Assembly (NCBI GenBank): GCA_028753945.1
Contig: JAPNXP010000002.1
Coordinates: forward strand, 1,550,001 to 1,614,000
Length of the DNA stretch: 64,000 nt
Origin: Hexactinellida sp. DTS-2022
Lineage: Eukaryota > Porifera > Hexactinellida
Direction of reading: 5' to 3'
In this document: piece after piece, positions 36,940-57,463 of the stretch
Layout: the number at the start of each line of letters is the position of its first letter
Position numbering within the stretch: the first letter of the stretch is position 1
Program-made: the position numbers and the translations under genes
Notes under the pieces: model-generated
Told to the model about the DNA's origin: nothing
The model's input: the letters and a program-made list of their open reading frames with translations, nothing else
The model's database searches: none

Positions 36940-38407
36940 GGGTGCGACTTGGTGATATATAATATAAGGCTTCAGATGACTCCCATTTATGCGACTCACA
37001 GTGCAGTCAGGATTACACACAAGTGAAGTGAGTACAACCCTTTTCCCAAATGATTGACAACTGTATAAGGACCAGAAATGGGGTCAAGCCCTTTTGAAAG
37101 GGCTTAACCCCATGTCTGAAAGGACCCAACCATTTAATATCCAATTTTCCTCCCTTACGCTTCTTTCGTTTAAGGCCTTCACAAGTACTTCTGCACCACA
37201 ATGATATGCATAATATTTGGCATGTTTTCGATCATACTGTTCTTTTTGATTTACCTGATCCCTATCGAAATTTGTTTTTGCTTCTTCAAGGATATTGAGT
37301 TGGCTGTCTATTGCCTGGTCAGTAGTGTCTGTTATACAATCTGGCGCATTGTCAAAATTACTCAGAATTTCTTCTGCGGTTTTCAGAGACATCTCAACGT
37401 CTATTGGAAGAAGCGCTTTTCGACCAAACATTAATTCGAAAGTAGTGAAATGTGTTGTTTCATGATTTGATGTATTATAGGCAAATACGCACGTATCTAG
37501 ATAACTATCCCATAACATTTTTTCTCTTCTACAAATTTCACTAGCATTACTTGTAGGGTCTGATTCCATCTCTTATCCAAACCGTTTGCCTAAGAGATAA
37601 TAGAAAATTAATGTTCATTAAAAGTACAGGTTATCCGTTCCAAATAAATATGAACATACAGGCAACGATTTGATTTCTTAGTAGGTAAAAGCTGAAAAAC
37701 AATTATCACAAAAACAAACTTGAGGATGGTATGGAGTGGTGAGACGATGATTAACGTTTAATCTCTTCATAAGTACATTATTAAGTTCATTCACGAACTC
37801 ACCGCCTTGATCAGTAGTGAGCACCTGGGACAATCCCATTCTCATGAATATCTACATGAAAAACAGTCGTATAAAGGTAATTTCGAATTGGTATGGTCAA
37901 TCATGCAATCTGGTCAAGTAGAAAATAAAAGTAATATTTAGTTTAACTGCTAACCTTTAATAGGATCTCACCGACGGTACTGCTCCACTGATTAGGCGCA
38001 GGAACTGCTTCCACTAGTGAAATATATATACTGTTGTTATTGCATGAAGAAGGCAAGGGTCCAACGAAGTCCACCCCAACATGATACCAAGGAAACTTTA
38101 CTGGTTATTATTAGGGTGTAGCTCTGGCCTAGTAATACTCGTTTACGGCTCATCTTTTGACATGTATCACAATGTAAGATCTGTTAGATTATAGTTGTAA
38201 ATTTACTCGTCCAAAAGACTATACACAGAATAAACTTATACTCAGCATGTCCTCCACATCATTTACCATGCCACTCCACATGAATCGCTCACTGATACGA
38301 GCCAAAGTACGCTTGAGGCACTGATGTCCAGACGTTGAATCGTGATGGCAAGCATGCATAATTTTCTGTTGTTCCGTAGGGCTCCTGACAAACCGATGGT
38401 CAACCAT
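36940..38407 (-). pseudogene. Gypsy-type integrase remnant (Ginger1-like)
   Basis: Reading on the minus strand: H2C2 zinc-binding region (A-C-H-H-D...G-H-Q-C-L-K-R-T-L at 38400-38220); catalytic core with D-F-V-G-P-L-P (about 38070) and T-T-D-Q-G-G-E-F-V-N (about 37820), between which there is a GT-AG-like gap; F-A-Y-N-T-S-N-H-E-T-T (about 37480) and F-E-L-M-F-G-R-K; K-E-Q-Y-D-R-K-H; then K-W-L-G-P-F and N-G-S-H-L-K-P-Y, the GPY/F module. Where the catalytic Glu is expected (G-L-x-E-R) it reads G-L-D-K-R-W-N, so Glu appears replaced. A frameshift lies near 37530, and a hairpin of about 35 bp (37078-37112) interrupts the GPF segment. No reverse transcriptase is present, which argues against a Gypsy retrotransposon. 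Confidence 0.7.
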
Positions 38408-38744: not shown

Positions 38745-39741
38745 CAAAAAATAAAATCCAAAGTTGCAGCCTATGCCGATGCATTTCCCTTTGGAGGTAG
38801 TACATTTGGTGGTTGGGTAACTACTGCACAAAGCATCGTAATATGTGGTGTGCGTTGGTTCCCTGTTATTTTCTTAGCTGGGAATCCTTTTACAGCTCTA
38901 CCTCTTGTTCTTGATGTGTAGAGTCCAAACCCGCACTCATCAACATAACAAAAACGAGCACCCATCTCATGCTGGGACATCAAACATGTTGCGTGTTCCC
39001 TTCTTGATGCCTTCAGTTCGTCGCAATTCCTATTTATTGGAATTTGTTCCAATTTTTTCATTGTAATTAATTTCCCTTCAAGACATCTGGCTATCGTGCT
39101 CACTGAAACCTATACTCCTTTTAAATCCAGTTGTTCTTTCAATTCGTTGAGCGTGATGTCTGGACGGGATTCAACCTTTTCAAGTAAAATGAACATGTGT
39201 ATCATTTAATTTCTTTCCTCTAGAACCACCTCTGTTCTTCACTTGATACTTTCTCAAACTACAAATCCTATATGCAGTATCTACTTTTACACCAAATAGT
39301 TGGGACATTTGCTTGTAGGTCAGGCCTGTTTCGTGGGCATCAATTAATCTCCTGCGCACCTCGTTTGTAATTGTCTTGCCTCCTTTTGGAGCCACACTGT
39401 TACTCCCAAACGATTCTGAGGTTTCCAATGTTGTGTTCATTTTTGAAGAATCAAAGTTTGTATCTTGAAAGTTATTAAGCAAATTATTTGTTTGTGCCTC
39501 ATATTTACCTGCTTATATAAATACACCAACCGTATACCAAAATGAAAAACAACTGTATTCATATTCATTGGATCAATCGGATAATTGGTTGACAGAGTCG
39601 GATAATTGGTTGACCAAATAGGATGATTGGTTGACCCAATGTGATGATTGGTTGACTGAATCGGATAATTGACTGAGAAATACAGTAGTAGTGCCTCCAA
39701 AGGGAAATACTTTCGGAACATGCTGCAATTTTAGATTTTTT
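38745..39741 (-). mobile_element. Tc1/IS630-like element W with broken transposase
   Basis: Inverted ends of AAAATCCAAAGTTGCAG type (left) and CTGCAATTTTAGATTTT (right), with GCATTTCCCTTTGGAGG just inside. The minus-strand ORF 39482-39180 has a helix-turn-helix of IS630/Tc1 type (R-R-L-I-D-A-H-E-T-G-L-T-Y). ORF 39103-38771 has Y-V-D-E-C-G-F-G-L-Y-T-S-R-T-R-G-R-A, the first catalytic Asp region. The rest of the DDE core is deleted, so this is defective. MITEs V1 and V2 are smaller relatives. Confidence 0.7.
39570..39682. repeat. 20-bp tandem repeat
   Basis: About five units of GGATAATTGGTTGAC plus a variable five bases, inside element W. Confidence 0.85.
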
Positions 39742-40152
39742 AGCCATGTCATCATTCGAATTAATATTTTTTTAACATTATCGAAATTTTTTAATTATCT
39801 AACATTGTTTATTTTAGATAGCACAAATTGAATATTTTATAACGAATAAATCGAGCTACCCTCTGAGCTCAATAATGCCTCCTACACATACGAAACAATT
39901 TGGCCATTTAGTTTGAATGTCTATCTTTTATACTTTTTGAGACTAGGCTCGGCTACCATCCACCACTTTCTTCGCGAGAAGGAGAAAAAATTTCTGGAGA
40001 GATGACGACTCATTGAGCCACTTCGGAGGCATACGTCGTCCAAAAATATTCGGATTGAAATTTTACTTCATATTCGGGTAGTTTAGATATGGATGTATAC
40101 TTGCACAGGTACAACCGATCTTTAAACAATTTTCCGAATTCATGGTCCACTT

Positions 40153-41321
40153 CACAGTGGGAATTTAGGTGGAAATAGGATAAAATTATCATTCTCTTGA
40201 AACTTGAATTCGTGCTTACCAGTGAATTCAGAATATCAAATAACCAAGTAATGCATAATTTCATTCTGATCTAAGAAAAATTTTGGTTGTTATGACTATT
40301 CAAAGTATTAGATTTTTGACAATTGGAATTTCTATTTTGCGGTTATAGAAAGTTACTAATGCTTCATTGCATATTTTGAGAACACTGTTCTTCAGAATTA
40401 CTTCTCTTTTGAATATTCTGATATACATGATTTAATTATATATATTATATATCATAATAACATCTCAGTATAAATTGATTATGTGATGTGGCTAACGGAA
40501 AATATACGATTCGGACAATAAATTCTTGCTTAGTCCACCTCCTTCAAGATGATGGGAAATATCGTGTCCAGGTTTATGCGGTTTTTTTTGTGTTTTTAAT
40601 ATAAAGTATACATATTTAACTTCAATATAAACCAAATTCCAGATGCGCAAAACTTTGCCCACAGATATTTTCTTTTATTATTAATTAATTTATTAAGATA
40701 AGTGATTCAAGTACAAATTATACTCCTTCAATTAAAATTATTTTTTATGCATAACAAGGAAGCTTCAGAATTTCTTAACTCGAATCCAGTGAGTTAGGGG
40801 CTACAATGAATTAGAATCTGACTAATATCAAACATTTCGGTGTCAATTTGATGAATTAAAGTTTAGCAGGGAGCTGAACTGTCGGCAAATTAGTGGAAAT
40901 TTACTTTGTACATACTGAGATCTCAACAATACTGTCAAAACTAGGTTCTACTAGCTCTAAAACCTAGGTGATGTAATATTCTTATAAAATAGTTTCTAAA
41001 TGCGCGAAAAGGCGCGACGTAGATTACTTAATAACTTTGAACCATATATATTAGGATTTTTGAAAAAATTATACCTTGTTCAAGAAATATAATCAATAAT
41101 CATGGGTGAACAATAAAAAATTTGTTAACAAACCTAAAGTATAATTTATGATAGAATTAACATAAATTGTCTAGAACTACGTTTAGGTGAATACGTACAT
41201 CATTTTTGATAATTCCATTCAGTTTGCAGCTACCGATAACCTATATGTCAATAATACTTCATTAGAGTCTATATAGCATAGTTTTCCTATTTCCACTTCA
41301 GCCCTGAAAATTCCCACTGTG
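40153..41321. mobile_element. CACAGTG-ended element A, copy 1 (Transib/RAG-like candidate)
   Basis: Both ends are CACAGTGGGAATTT, flanked by the direct 5-bp repeat CACTT (40148-40152 and 41322-41326). The shared block GAAATAGGA sits 12 bp from the heptamer at the left (40172-40180) and 21 bp from it at the right (41285-41293). It is non-coding. The 5-bp TSD and CAC start fit the Transib superfamily, relatives of RAG1. The second copy is 45459-47984. Confidence 0.75.
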
Positions 41322-41536
41322 CACTTTGAGGGGCAATCATCTAATAAGGGGGTATATAACTCTAGTAATAAAAATAAAAATAATGTTTTGTGTCGTGAAT
41401 TTAATAGCATAAAAATTTGATGACTATATTGTGAGTTTAAGGAATATACTATAGTATAGATAATGATTGTCCTATTCAAGTTCGCACTGGGAGGTCTGTT
41501 CTAGCACTTTAGTGCGATCTAACAATAATAATAATA

Positions 41537-42149: not shown

Positions 42150-43740
42150 ATTTCTGTAACCTATTGTCTATTCTGTACGGCACACAGGGCACGGCTGATC
42201 TAACTCATAAATCATTTCCTTACACTCTGTACAACAGTTTGCATGCCTACAAGGCATGAAATCCAGGTTGTCATACGTGGTGAAAGGCAAACAAAGCAAA
42301 CATTCCCAGCATGCAGCAGATACTATTTCTTCACTCTCATCTTCAGAATCGTTGGAGGATATACTATCTTCCGCATTGTCTGCACTAATTTTACCAATAT
42401 TATGGCTGCTACCTTGAATACATGCTCATGGGTGAAAGCTCCGTCATGTAAATTTTATTTACATCTACTCCGCTCGTACATCGTTTTCTATATCTACTTT
42501 CTTCTCGGCCTACTTATATCTCTACCAATTTGCAAGCGCCCAACATCATTATCTATATCCCTTACAAGTTACAATATCGTTTAGATTCTTTAGAAGATGC
42601 CATAAATGTCCATATTCTGGGATGTGTATATTTTGAAATATATTTCAGTTTTGAATGGTAGCTCTCGGCTGCATTGTTAGCAGCGAAATTAATCTCATTC
42701 ATGCGGAGTTCAGCGGGTGTAATTTGTCTTATCCAATCATTCTTTAATATTTTTGTAATTTTTCGAGCTTATTTATTCTGCATCGTTTACCGTAGGTAAT
42801 TGGAGACAGCTATAAGTTGGAGTGATGAGAGAACTGGTAGAAAAGGGATGGCCATTAGTTTTGAACGTCAATCTTGAATCCTTGACTGTTTTGTGTTTTC
42901 CTCCTAATACATTGTGTGTAATTGTAGTGGAACCAACACCCATAAATTGTTATTTGGAGATAAACTTCCTTGATTGTATTCCTAGCTGCAGGTTCCCAAT
43001 CTGACATTGAAGCCAGAGGCTTAAATTGAGAGATTTTCACAATGATACTTTCTAAAACCGCTTTATACAGCGCTTGACTTTTCGCAGTCATTAGACAATG
43101 TATTGCAGGTAACGTGTGTCTCCCCACTGCTACAAATATGGTCCATAACTGAGTGAATTGGGTAGGAACTGTGAAAAACGTGCCATAAAATTGTATGTTG
43201 GTCATAACAAAGTGCTCATCTCATTAGAAAAGAAATACACCTGTGTCTACCGGATGGTACCGACATTGGTGGAATTCCCCAAAAGTGGTTGTAGACAACA
43301 TCCCGCAAAATTCAAAAGCGCTAAGCGGAATTTTAGGCTGTAGTATTCTCCTCGCACGATACATGGCTGATTCGCATTCGGTGAATGAAATTTCGCCCTC
43401 ATATGGGTCAGTTCTAGTTACATCATCGAAAATCTTCCTTAGATTTGTTTGAGAATGTTTTGCAATTGTGTTACATTTTGTTTTCAGTTGGTAAACATCA
43501 CTTTTGTATTTTTCTAATCAATGAGTATGAGTGTGCAGAGGGGTGATTAAATTTGTCTCATTATTGAGCTTTCCGGTTCATTTGCAACCACCCCTAAATA
43601 ATACGCACTTAAGTAGATGTACTTTTCGCTAATTTTTGACCCCACATATTTTGTCCGTCTACAGTTGAAAATACTTTTCCCATAAAACTTTGTACTCTTC
43701 CAAAGTGTATTCCATTTGTTGTATGATTTAACTACCAACT
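42150..43740 (-). pseudogene. MULE transposase with C-terminal RING finger
   Basis: Minus-strand order: FLYWCH-like remnant (F-N-C-R-R-T-K at about 43655); T-E-C-E-S-A-M-Y-R-A-R-R region (43380); DDE core with Q-F-T-Q-L-W-T-I-F-V, L-P-A-I-H-C-L-M, M-S-D-W-E-P-A-A-R-N and Y-G-C-W-F-H-Y (43205-42900); then a full C3HC4 RING at about 42350-42170 (C-W-E-C ... P-C-R-H-A-N-C-C-T-E-C ... C-P-V-C-R). In-frame stops and shifts occur throughout. The RING C-terminus suggests ubiquitin-ligase activity in the parent element. It lies in sulfotransferase intron 2. Confidence 0.75.
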
Positions 43741-44700: not shown

Positions 44701-45651
44701 GCAACTCCTTTTATAAAGACATTAGTGCATCCTGAAAAAAATATCTAAGATCCCGATCCTATTTTCAATAAGGATCTACGATCCGATCACGATCCTTTGA
44801 TAATTCAATTAGGCAGATATTGACAGTATATAGTAAGTTTGTTCCTATAAGCCAGATTGAATGTCAAAAATATAATATAGGTTTGTAATTTACCGATATT
44901 ATTGTTTTGCCTATTAAGCAAAAATAATTTTGATAATTGTCCTGTATTTATCAAAAAAAGGATCGGGATCATTTTCTATAAATTCTCCGATCAGACCATG
45001 ACATGAATCACATGATCCTAGTTTGTAAACAGAGTGGACCATGGGTCGATGGGTCATGGATCAGATGGGTCAGATGGTTCATGGGTCATATTCTGTTAAT
45101 CTGTATTTATGTTATTATGTTACTGTGACAGAGAGTATTTAGATATTGAAATTGTTTGATGGGTCAATCGGTCACTCGATGGGTCAATGGGTTACTTGCA
45201 GTGGCGTAGCCAGGGGGGGGGGGGCAGCCGGGGCCAGGCGGCTCAGGCCCCGGTTGTCGCACCAATGTTGGGGCCCCACCGGCTCAATATTTCAACCTCG
45301 CGGACCGCGAAGCGACTGAGCAAGCGTAGCACGCTAGTATTTTTTAATATTATAGCTAAAATTACTTAGTAGCTAGGATGCTCTATAACAGTGCTTCTCA
45401 AACTTTTTCATGTCGCGGACCAATAATTTCGTTATCACAATTACACGGACCTCCCGTACACAGTGAGAATTTAAGGGGAAATAGGAAAATTATCATTCTC
45501 TTGAAACTTGAATTCGTGGTTACCACTGAATTCAGAATATCAAATAACCTAGTAATGCATAATTTCATTCTGATTTAAGAAATATTTTGGTTGTTATGAC
45601 TATTCAAAGTATTAGATTTTTAGTGTGCTTCTTCTAGTAAAAAACGTTATA

Positions 45652-45834
45652 CAGGTAAACCTCCCAAAGCGGCACCTCCGAGTAGCGGCAACCTCCGAGA
45701 AGCGGCACAAAATCATTCTCCCGATGGTGCCGCTTTGGGAGTTTTACCTTACGAGCAACCTCCCAAAGCGGCAACCTCCGAGAAGCGGCACAAAATCATT
45801 CTCCCGATGGGTGCCGCTTTGGGAGGTTTACCTG
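45652..45834. mobile_element. TA-flanked MITE B, copy 2
   Basis: CAGGTAAACCTCCCAAAGCG ... CGCTTTGGGAGGTTTACCTG, TA on both sides. G copy 1 shows the uninterrupted site at about 1735-1750. Confidence 0.9.
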
Positions 45835-46536
45835 TAGTAGGGTCCTACTATAGTTTTATAAGTGCACACTATTGAATTTACCTCTGTCGGACTTCCGGCC
45901 GGCCGTACGCGATGGCCTGACTAAACCATTGGCGATAGAGATTTAAAATTTTGACAGGAGATATAGAATTTCCTGGAGATGATCACCTCGAAGCCTGATT
46001 TCTCTATTTCGCTTTTGTTCGTCAGTTATATCGAAATTTGTATTCTGGTCCAGTGACTCTTTAATAATTCGAATTAGTTATTGAAAATATAGAGGTTGTA
46101 TTCACCTAAGGATGTTCTTTTTATATATCAATTAAAATTATTAGGTCGCTAATCAATTCTACGTTTTATTAACGATTATTTACATAAATCAGCCATCTTC
46201 TCCATATTGTAATTACTCTATACTATAGTATACTGAATACAATAGAACATATTACATAAGCCTACTAAAGATAATGACTGTTATTGATTGGTTTGTAAGT
46301 GAATATGTGTTTCATACAAGTGCAATTAAAACACTTGGGAAGTTGGAATATTTTACAAGTTGATGATGATGTCAATTCTATTATTCAAAATAGTAACGTA
46401 AATACTAGCACGTATTCCTAATTGGAATTACTTATATAGAGCTGAGCTTTGTAGAGTTCAGTTTTTCACTATGTTTTCACTTCCTAATTTATATTTGTAA
46501 TAATTAATCTTTAATTTATTTAATTTATTAAACATT

Positions 46537-46722
46537 TGTTATTATTATTTTTATTATTACAGTACTATTATTATTATCATTATTATTATTATTATTTTAT
46601 TAATATTAATTTCATTATTTTAATTAAAGAACGTTCTTATTATTATTATTATTATTTTTATTTTTATTATTACACTACTATTATTATTATCATTATTATT
46701 ATTATTATTTTAGTATTATTAT
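46537..46722. repeat. (TTA)n microsatellite
   Basis: Two long TTA/ATT runs around a short unique segment. The Tyr-rich ORF across it is an artefact of the triplet repeat. Confidence 0.95.
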
Positions 46723-48123
46723 CTTATTAACTTAATTGTTCTTAAATTAAACTGTATTTCATCCAAGTGCAAATAGATACGTATTAATTACTACTATATA
46801 TTATTATTATTTTATTTATAATTAATCTTTAATTAATTTAAACATTTGAAGTCTTCACAATTCAAACATTAATTAAATTATATTACACTAAGATAAATGT
46901 AATTTTAATATTAAATTCTAGTTAAATTAAACATTGGGGAAGTGCAATCAGAAGGAGCACACCCCATCCCGTCTGTGAGGGGTTTTAACAATTGGAATTT
47001 CTATTTTGCGGTTATAGAAAGTTACTAATGCTTCATTGCAGATTTTGAGAACACTGTTGAGAATGACTTCTCTTTTGAATATTCTGATATACATGGATTA
47101 ATTATATATATTAGATATCATAATAACATCTCAGTATAAATTGATTATGGGATGTGGCTAACAGAAAATATACAATTCGGACAATAAATTCTTGCTTAGT
47201 CCCCCTCCTTCAAGGTGGGGGAAATATCGTGTCCAGGCTCATGGGGTTTTTTTAGTGTTTTTAATATAAAGTAGACATATTTAACTTCAATATAAACCAA
47301 ATTCCAGATGCCCAAAATTTGCCCACAGATATTTTCTTTTAATATTAATTAATTTATTAAGATAAGTGATTCAAGTACAAATTATACTCCTAAAATTAAA
47401 ATTATTTCTTATGCATAACAAGGAAGCTTTTGAATTTCTTAACTCGAATCCAGTGAGTTATGGATTACAATGAAATAGAATCTGACTAATATTAAACAAT
47501 TCTGTGTCAATTTGATGAATTAAAGTTTAGCAGGGAGCTGAACTGTCGGCAAATTAGTGGAAACATTCTTTTTACATACTGAGATCACAACAATATTGTC
47601 AAAACTAGGTTCTACTAGCTCTAAAACCTAGGTGATGTAATATTCTTATAAAATAGTTTCTAAATGCGCGAAAAGGCGCGACGTGGGTACTTAATAACTT
47701 TGAACCATATATATTAGGATTTTTGAAAAAATTATACCTTGTTCAAGAAATATAATCAATAATCATAGGTGAACAATAAAAAATTTGTTAACAAACCTAA
47801 AGTATAATTTATGACAGAATTAACATGAATTGTCTATAACTCCGTTTAGGAGCTACGTACATCATTTTTGATAATGCCATTCAGTTTGCAGCCACCGATA
47901 ACCTATATGTCAATAATACTTCATTAGAGTATATCTAGCATAGTTTTCCTATTTCCCCTTACACCCCTGAAAATTCCCACTGTGGCGTATTTTCGCGCAG
48001 TCTCGACCTTAGTAAAATTTGATTATTGTGATGTTTCAACATTTATGATGCAAAAATACGTGGAAATTATCAATTGTGGATAATCGACGGTAAATTATAA
48101 AAAGCGTTTCTAATTAATGTCAA

Positions 48124-55541: not shown

Positions 55542-55721
55542 TTAGAATGATAAATGTATTGGTAAAGTCACATACTGTAAGGAAGAAATAGGTACCATTA
55601 ACTTTAATAATTTTTTTGCGGTTTTGCCATTTTCACAACTCCATATATACTAAAGTTTCCAACCCAAATTAACCAAAAAACTCCAGTTATTTTGTCTATG
55701 ATTATCATATAGAATACTCAC

Positions 55722-57035
55722 CATCCTTAAGTGTATTCCAGCGTGAAAGAGGAATCGTTAATGATTCAATTGTAGTGTATTTCCTGAATCGTTTTCCAAA
55801 CCAAAAGGCAAGATTAGATTTCAACTCAAGAGTAACAACCAATTCTATTTTATAATGATAAGAGTTCTCTTTGATAATTTCCCCATAAGTTTCGGAGAGT
55901 TGAGCAATCAAAATATTCAGCATCACTACGATTATTGTGAATGCAAATACAAGATATATAAATGTGAAGAAAATATTATCTTGAAATAAATCCTCCACAT
56001 GATTTCCTGGACCTCCATCCAAAATAAAGATAAGTCCACTTAACAATGGGCGCCTCAGATCGTACATACAAGTTAGGTCTTGGTTGAACCAAAAGAATTC
56101 AGAATTTGTGTCATTACAGACTTCATATGGAGTATTCGCACAGACATTGGAACTTACATTCAACTTTGGTTGCTGTCTCGCTGCCAGATGAATTCCGCCC
56201 ATATAAGCAATTAATATTATAATTACGATTATGAAGAATCGAGGGATGTCTATCGCAAATATACGGAACACTCCACTAACATATGCTCCAAGCGCAGGAG
56301 AGATTCGAGTATATTTAAAGAGAGAGAGACTAAAAAAGATAAAAGTTAATCCAGCAAAAGACCACTGTATATAGGATCTTAAGGCTCTGAGGATTATTAA
56401 GACAATGAATGAAATGATTGCCAACCAATCAATAAAGTTATATACACCATCAAAATATTCCGGAAATGCGCTGAAAAAGTACTTCAGTTTAATATCAATA
56501 CGATGAAATATTTCAAGAGATTTTTTCCAAGACAAGAAAAATACAGAAAAGAATGGTTTTTTCCCTTCATTGTTAGAGTCCGTTATGTATGTAACAGTCA
56601 AGTGAGTTTCCTCAGGTTTGTCTTTCTTTTCTTCGTAGATCTGAGTCCATTCGATTAGAAATTCAACTGCTTCGTTAAATAAGAAAAAGAAGAAATACAA
56701 TATGCATATCACCTCGCATACCCCCCGTACCCAATCTGCTGGAAACTGGTAAAGCCAGATATGAGTATCACAAACCGTGGAAGCCTGAATTAGAGCGTAT
56801 CCTAGACAAGTTAGGAAGAAGATGTAGAAAAAGAAGGATATAACATACCACCAGCGGTAGAAGCGTAGCTTTTTATCAACTATTATACTAACTAGAGGAT
56901 GGTACTTGAGTTCTTGGTCTGGACAATCCTTCAGCTTATGCAGAAAGGATTGTTTCAGAGGCTTGTATCCTGAATTATGAGGATATTTTCCATCTTCGTT
57001 AGAATCGAAGAATAAAGTTTCTGCTCTGACTTCAC
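55722..57035 (-). CDS. TRP-family cation channel, transmembrane exon
   Basis: A 438-codon exon with the whole channel core. Seen: H-P-L-V-S-I-I-V-D-K-K-L before S1; hydrophobic segments S1 (Y-V-I-S-F-F-F-Y-I-F), S2 (V-C-E-V-I-C-I-L-Y-F), S3 (F-I-D-W-L-A-I-I-S-F), S4, S5 (F-I-I-V-I-I-I-L-I-A); a pore loop with I-L-D-G-G-P-G-N-H; and S6 ending M-L-N-I-L-I-A-Q-L-S-E-T-Y, the TRP signature. The style is closest to TRPA/TRPV; ankyrin repeats, if any, would be in upstream exons that I do not find. It begins at acceptor ttcttgtag|GT and ends GATG|gtgagt. An apparent longer ORF into 57300 is read-through of a hAT MITE. Confidence 0.85.
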
Positions 57036-57163
57036 CTACAAGAATCAAGAGTATAAGAAGGTTTGAACTATTACAATTGGTATTTAAGTGTGCATTTTCC
57101 AAGATAAGGCATGTATGACCATGTAGAAATATATATATTATAAATGTAGAGCTTGTTAGGAGC

Positions 57164-57463
57164 AGGGGCGTCAGAAGGGGGGGGCACAGGGGGACACGTG
57201 CCCCCCTCAAAAATCTCGGTGCCCTCCTCATCTGTGCATCCCCTCGCCTGTGCCCCCTTCCTCTGTTCAAATAGATGAAATAACAACAGTAATGATACAC
57301 ATGAGTTCAAATGTCATGATACCACTGCTCTTATCCGAAGTGAAACTATCAAAAAAGACATAAAATCACGTTGGGTTTTATACTACTAAGAATTAGCTTT
57401 TTGTCTGTGCCCCCTCTAAATTCTGATTGCCCCCTCCCCGATTTCACGCTTCCGACGCCCCTG
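57164..57463. mobile_element. hAT-type MITE N, copy 2
   Basis: Ends CAGGGGCGTCAGAAGG and CTTCCGACGCCCCTG. Perfect duplication GTTAGGAG (57156-57163 and 57464-57471). Inverted relative to copy 1. Lies just upstream of the TRP membrane exon, in the intron. Confidence 0.9.

Follow-up and report, generated by a model that had tools for sequence, protein, structure and literature searches.

A gene-less hexactinellid sponge element with two-part, recombination-signal-like ends is very probably a recently mobile Transib transposon

We analysed a 64,000-nucleotide stretch of a hexactinellid sponge genome (Hexactinellida sp. DTS-2022, assembly GCA_028753945.1, contig JAPNXP010000002.1, positions 1,550,001 to 1,614,000 of the forward strand), hereafter called the window, which carries at 40153-41321 an element of 1169 bp that is very probably a non-autonomous Transib transposon (plus strand, reading from its short to its long end). 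A sequence-only reading of the window had described CACAGTG at both termini, a perfect 5-bp direct repeat (CACTT) flanking them, and a second block 12 bp from the left heptamer and 21 bp from the right one, and direct reading of the window copy confirmed all three. The heptamer of the short (5′-type) end lies at 40153-40159 on the plus strand and is followed by a 12-bp spacer (40160-40171) and by the block GAAATAGGA in a nonamer-like position (40172-40180). The long (3′-type) end is on the minus strand, with its heptamer at 41315-41321, a 21-bp spacer at 41294-41314 and GAAATAGGA again at 41285-41293. The two copies of CACTT, which have no strand, occupy 40148-40152 and 41322-41326 and represent the target site duplication (TSD). 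The termini form a perfect 14-bp inverted repeat, and the element itself carries no gene. In the genome (112.4 Mb in 18 contigs), the terminal 14-mer occurred at 114 sites, 61 forward and 53 reverse, and the reversed control pattern at none, indicating that the element ends recur beyond chance.

The window element belongs to a family with at least 47 genomic matches, as judged from the best 40 of 625 candidates scored. Five of 23 full-length copies compared were 99.4-99.8% identical to the window copy and the rest 91-95%; the difference of 0.2-0.6% in these five copies points to recent movement. From 43 copies with distinct flanks we dropped L087, L088, L091 and L097, which had no recognisable right end, leaving 39 two-ended copies. 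Their left spacer measured 12 bp in 35, 11 bp in three and 13 bp in one, and their right spacer 22 bp in 29, 21 bp in nine and 13 bp in one. The right-end spacer of 21 bp is a variant of the young subfamily plus a few other copies, and 22 bp is commoner. Exact 5-bp TSDs flanked 28 of the 39 copies. Among the others, L053 had a 6-bp and L050 a 4-bp duplication, L044, L045 and W2 showed one mismatch, L047 and L048 had TSDs displaced by two extra bases, and L008, L057, L079 and L080 were without a clear TSD. The heptamer was altered in some older copies (L008, L079, L080, L085, L086 and L089).

The 5-bp duplication was also seen beyond this family. We compiled 65 two-ended elements, comprising the 39 family copies, 16 additional copies that are autonomous and 10 additional short elements (10 of 16 first picked), with the autonomous copy L041 counted once. 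Exact 5-bp TSDs were present in 48 of the 65 (28, 13 and 7, respectively); five more were perfect but displaced by 1-3 bases, three had one mismatch, and nine matched over 4 or 6 bp or not at all. The perfect but displaced TSDs, each with 1-3 additional bases between it and one element end, belonged to L047, L048, L059, L107-L108 and L115-L116, and L113-L114 showed four matching TSD bases with three extra bases. Such displacement suggests occasional cutting slightly beyond the heptamer, with donor bases carried along. A GC bias of TSDs is described for ProtoRAG, Transib and RAG in a section of PMC8289069; the bias is weak here, since the 28 TSDs (39% GC) only slightly exceed the loci (34%).

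The sequence-only reading had noticed no RAG1-like gene in the window, which held for the window, but such a gene was found elsewhere in the genome. Two longer copies, L039 (3512 bp, with broken frames) and L041 (4232 bp), carry window-type ends and exact TSDs and encode a related protein. The protein from L041 is a RAG1/Transib-type transposase with HzTransib as its best solved-structure match (E 2.6e-25), and HzTransib (6pqn-6pr5) was the best match both in sequence and in structure. CAC or CA termini are found in several superfamilies, which counts for the alternative that the element belongs to another CAC-ended DNA-transposon superfamily (CACTA, hAT or P) and resembles recombination signal sequences (RSSs) by chance. 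The longer coding copy encodes a RAG1/Transib-type DDE protein and not one of another superfamily; we regard this alternative as refuted, with next to no probability left to it. Over its first 620 bp (40153-40772, plus strand), the window element was 98.7% identical to L041. Its 3′ part (40773-41321, plus strand) resembled the 3′ ends of relatives: over its last 62 bp it matched the 3′ end of the autonomous copy L059 at 92% identity, and further pieces of it matched 3′ parts of L039 and L041 at 75-87%. Because the first 620 bp match L041 and the last 62 bp match L059, the window element is, to judge from these alignments, a gene-less derivative with a 3′ end from a relative.

According to an excerpt of PMC4411706, an animal genome typically holds a single autonomous Transib or a few at most, whereas here we found at least 74 matches to the transposase, spread over about 70 places (best 70 of 1027 candidates scored), many of them broken and others with frames of 600-757 aa. 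We read 20 of these places, mostly chosen for their long frames, which together with L039 and L041 gave 22 autonomous loci; of these, 17 showed both ends, and L064, L066, L069, L072 and L074 one end each. Exact 5-bp TSDs were seen in 14 of the 17 two-ended copies; that of L059, also 5 bp long, was displaced by two bases, L077 matched over four bases, and L078 had no TSD. At L077, two different Transib left ends lie 79 bp apart, at about 691-770 of the oriented locus, which suggests insertion of one element within or next to another. The sequence CACAGTGG was present in both ends of all 12 autonomous families for which both ends were found, with an end finder that itself demanded CAC. Species-named homologues of the transposase made up 16 of 83, all from Oopsacas minuta, with P0083 among them a weak match of another kind.

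We then weighed whether the element could come from the RAGL group, which encodes RAG1L and RAG2L, with RAG2L lost or missed. ProtoRAG and other RAGL elements share with the sponge elements CAC ends, a 5-bp TSD and a RAG1-like core, but they carry RAG2L. ProtoRAG has the heptamer CACTATG and 27/31 spacers, as given in part of PMC8289069. Two features of the sponge transposase resemble those that PMC7204232 and PMC9435367, in the parts concerned, describe for RAG1L. One is a helical region at residues 402-438. It falls in a stretch through which BbRAG1L aligns and for which HzTransib has 14 residues against the 48 (405-452) of the profile; from its position, we infer that the helical region corresponds to alpha11-alpha12 of a Subgroup I Transib. 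The other is a C-terminal CCHC-type motif, Cx2Cx3[GS]Hx3-5C, present in 10 of 17 rows and absent in 7, in which the last gap is x3 or x5 as against x4 in CTT1, the C-terminal tail of Subgroup I Transibs, and the RAG1L tails in the same part of PMC7204232 read Cx2Cx3GHx4C. Against a RAGL origin, exactly one frame of at least 250 aa was found in each of the 22 autonomous loci, where introns could hide a split gene, and HzTransib scored far above BbRAG1L. No convergent RAG2L gene was seen among frames of at least 250 aa in any of these 22 loci. A genome search with PF03089 gave no match, but its controls matched nowhere either, so that it is uninformative on RAG2. Taken together, we consider a RAGL origin very unlikely.

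Since the two ends of the window copy differ in spacer length, the sequence-only reading had likened them to the 12/23 rule. The short/long arrangement stood, while the long spacer proved to be 21 or 22 bp and not 23. At the sites of the exact 14-mer (first 100 of 114), all 26 convergent pairs had a spacer of 11-13 bp opposite one of 21-22 bp. Genome-wide, CACAGTGG followed by GAAATAGG occurred 153 times at spacers of 8-17 bp and 265 times at 18-25 bp, and the controls gave none; the pattern needs exact letters, so decayed ends are uncounted. Spacers of 11-13 bp accounted for 151 of the 153 and spacers of 20-22 bp for 261 of the 265. The long spacers, among the 260 sites listed, were 21 bp in 126, 22 bp in 126 and 20 bp in 8. 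When neighbours within 6 kb were paired among the 151 short and 260 long sites listed, 73 of 75 facing pairs were short/long, compared with 46% expected from random joining, although these are not independent tests because the pairs share ancestry. In 71 of these 73 pairs the spacers differed by 9 or 10 bp, and the other two were 11/22 and 12/20. One of the two remaining pairs was short/short and corresponds to L083 (C17:2420082-2421220), in which the long-type end is 9 bp shorter, giving 12/13 spacers with an exact 5-bp TSD. The sole long/long pair (C17:1819139-1819401, 263 bp) has ends from different pattern classes.

The same polarity was observed in the autonomous copies, in which the shorter spacer lay 5′ of the gene in 14 of 17 (12 bp in 13 copies and 8 bp in L060). 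L060 has an 8/22 pair and an exact TSD, and its relative L062 has a 5′ spacer of 12 bp. In the other three (L065, L073 and L076), divergence of the block makes the placing of the short end uncertain. A per-element shuffle test, which is weak, gave a best block offset of 9 or 10 in 14 of 18 elements; in eight of these the offset was reached by no more than 100 of 2000 shuffles, and in the remaining six (L062, L063, L068, L070, L071 and L078) by a larger number, and the other best offsets were 2 (L041), 8 (L060), 17 (L073) and 6 (L076). In place of this test we relied on the genome-wide counts and on a family-level block model, in which one member of each of 12 families was scored with a model derived from the remaining families' 5′ ends. 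The best 3′ match fell at +9 or +10 in 10 of the 12 families, compared with 109 of 3600 shuffled ends, and the 5′ block lay at bases 18-20 in nine, all of them among these ten. With one gap column put into the 21-type 3′ ends, the commonest base at each block position was shared on average by 8.6 of 12 families in the 5′ end and 8.4 in the 3′ end, and at each spacer position by 5.6 and 6.6, respectively.

These results allow a comparison with known systems. The block GAAATAGG(A) is not the RSS nonamer ACAAAAACC, as the sequence-only reading had said. Vertebrate 12/23 RSSs share with the sponge ends the heptamer CACAGTG and the combination of a short and a long end about a helical turn apart, and vertebrate RAG1 shares with the transposase the RAG1 core fold and a nonamer-binding domain (NBD)-like region. 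The heptamer and the 12-bp spacer of V(D)J signals are thus found here, whereas the nonamer and the 23-bp spacer are not; moreover, the vertebrate system carries out V(D)J joining instead of transposition, and the sponge elements contain no RAG2. The closest likeness is to asymmetric-ended Transibs, which also have a single RAG1-core-like transposase, a CAC heptamer and a 5-bp TSD. In a portion of PMC8355894, spacers of 12 and 23 ± 1 bp are given for Transib5 of Drosophila and for Transib2, N1, N2 and N3 of Anopheles, and in a passage of PMC9435367 all Subgroup I Transibs have asymmetric terminal inverted repeats (TIRs). Such asymmetry was found here, with L065, L073 and L076 ambiguous, along with a RAG1-core-like DDE transposase in the autonomous relatives, 5-bp TSDs, TIRs starting with CAC and a single gene without RAG2L. 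Compared with the published asymmetric Transibs, a single genome here holds at least 12 families with CACAGTGG, mostly with 12/21-22 spacers. HzTransib of Helicoverpa zea differs in having TIRs that an excerpt of PMC8289069 calls symmetric and 14 residues as against 48 (405-452) in the profile. AanRAGL of a pelagophyte alga is also reported, in a part of PMC9435367, to have asymmetric ends, whose spacings of 4 and 13 bp differ by 9.

Altogether, a recently mobile, non-autonomous Transib transposon with RSS-like two-part ends very probably explains these observations. The Transib/RAG-like origin suggested by the sequence-only reading was thus supported, since TSD length, end asymmetry and the autonomous partner were all examined and none spoke against it. 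In the mechanism that we propose, a transposase supplied in trans would act on the gene-less window element, and its NBD-like N-terminal part would read the second block. The nick-hairpin route is established chemistry for RAG and Transib, and cutting at the heptamer would follow it. One short and one long end would preferentially be brought together, and insertion would occur with a 5-bp stagger. The window copy itself may have arisen from an L041-like element that lost its gene, gained the 3′ end of a relative and then spread recently.

Several points weigh against this interpretation. Mobilisation in trans is a deduction from shared ends, and the 3′ end of the window element is nearer to L059 than to L041, which makes the transposase that moved it ambiguous. 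The combined placement of the 5′ block at bases 18-20 and the 3′ block at +9 or +10 was obtained in just nine of 12 families and failed in L065, L073 and L076. In L065 the best match was at base 11 in both ends, which is readable as symmetric. At that position, either end of L065 has a motif like GGAA(A)T(A)GG, alongside a second motif displaced by 9 bp; its family may have symmetric ends or ends of a different build. Strict asymmetry may also be dispensable, because L083 and L060 retain exact TSDs with 12/13 and 8/22 spacers and one long/long pair exists, but all three could reflect later changes or chance neighbours.

These exceptions bear on whether the 12/22 asymmetry is an inherited passenger, that is, whether mainly the terminal 14-18 bp are read and the pattern descends from one asymmetric ancestor through internal deletions. 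The exact TSDs of L083 and L060 favour such a passenger, as does the common ancestry of all families, which leaves the pair counts non-independent, and a part of PMC7204232 proposes for RAGL transposons that the terminal ~15 bp are recognised and that asymmetry matters little. However, the spacer sequence has diverged across the 12 families while spacer length and block were kept, and 412 of the 418 sites with spacers of 8-25 bp fall at 11-13 or 20-22 bp, where drift would scatter lengths. We hold the passenger explanation to be rather doubtful, though one to be taken seriously; a functional 12/23-type rule may operate in these elements. A further step would be that a RAG2-free, RAG1-like transposase enforces 12/22 pairing on ends with the exact RSS heptamer, so that 12/23 logic works without RAG2, is maybe older than RAG1-RAG2, and had its asymmetry kept by V(D)J recombination; we put this forward tentatively, at somewhat less than an even chance.

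The elements are Transibs of the already published kind with 12/23 ± 1 spacers and asymmetric TIRs, and Figure 1g of PMC9435367, a part of that paper on Subgroup I ends, may already draw the same spacing. As far as our literature search shows, the novelty lies in the group to which the host belongs, in the scale, in the sharing of the exact RSS heptamer by the autonomous families that we read and in the near-uniform short/long pairing without RAG2. In that search, judged mostly by title, no title on sponge Transibs was found, and the main text of the Oopsacas genome paper (PMC10280926) did not mention Transib or RAG1. A genome rich in RAG2-free Transibs with near-uniform 12/22 ends, some of them recently active, makes the origin of the 12/23 rule a testable question. 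About a dozen divergent families provide natural substrates, and several of the transposases have open frames of 711-757 aa and are near enough to HzTransib for structural work. If 12/22 pairing is indeed enforced without RAG2, V(D)J signals would have retained their asymmetry instead of inventing it.

The surroundings of the element hold further traces of transposons. A second copy of the family lies at 45459-47984 on the plus strand, with 12/22 spacers and the TSD CCGTA/GCGTA (one mismatch), and an A/T-rich insert that contains short tandem units interrupts it at about 45622-46987. Transposon remnants near the window element, all on the minus strand, comprise an integrase zinc-binding domain (38219-38407), a Sleeping Beauty-type helix-turn-helix below the cut-off (39180-39482) and a MULE transposase domain (42855-43205). 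Finally, an ion-channel-like open frame of 533 aa, whose homologues have PF00520 and ankyrin-type domains, is located at 55705-57306 on the minus strand.
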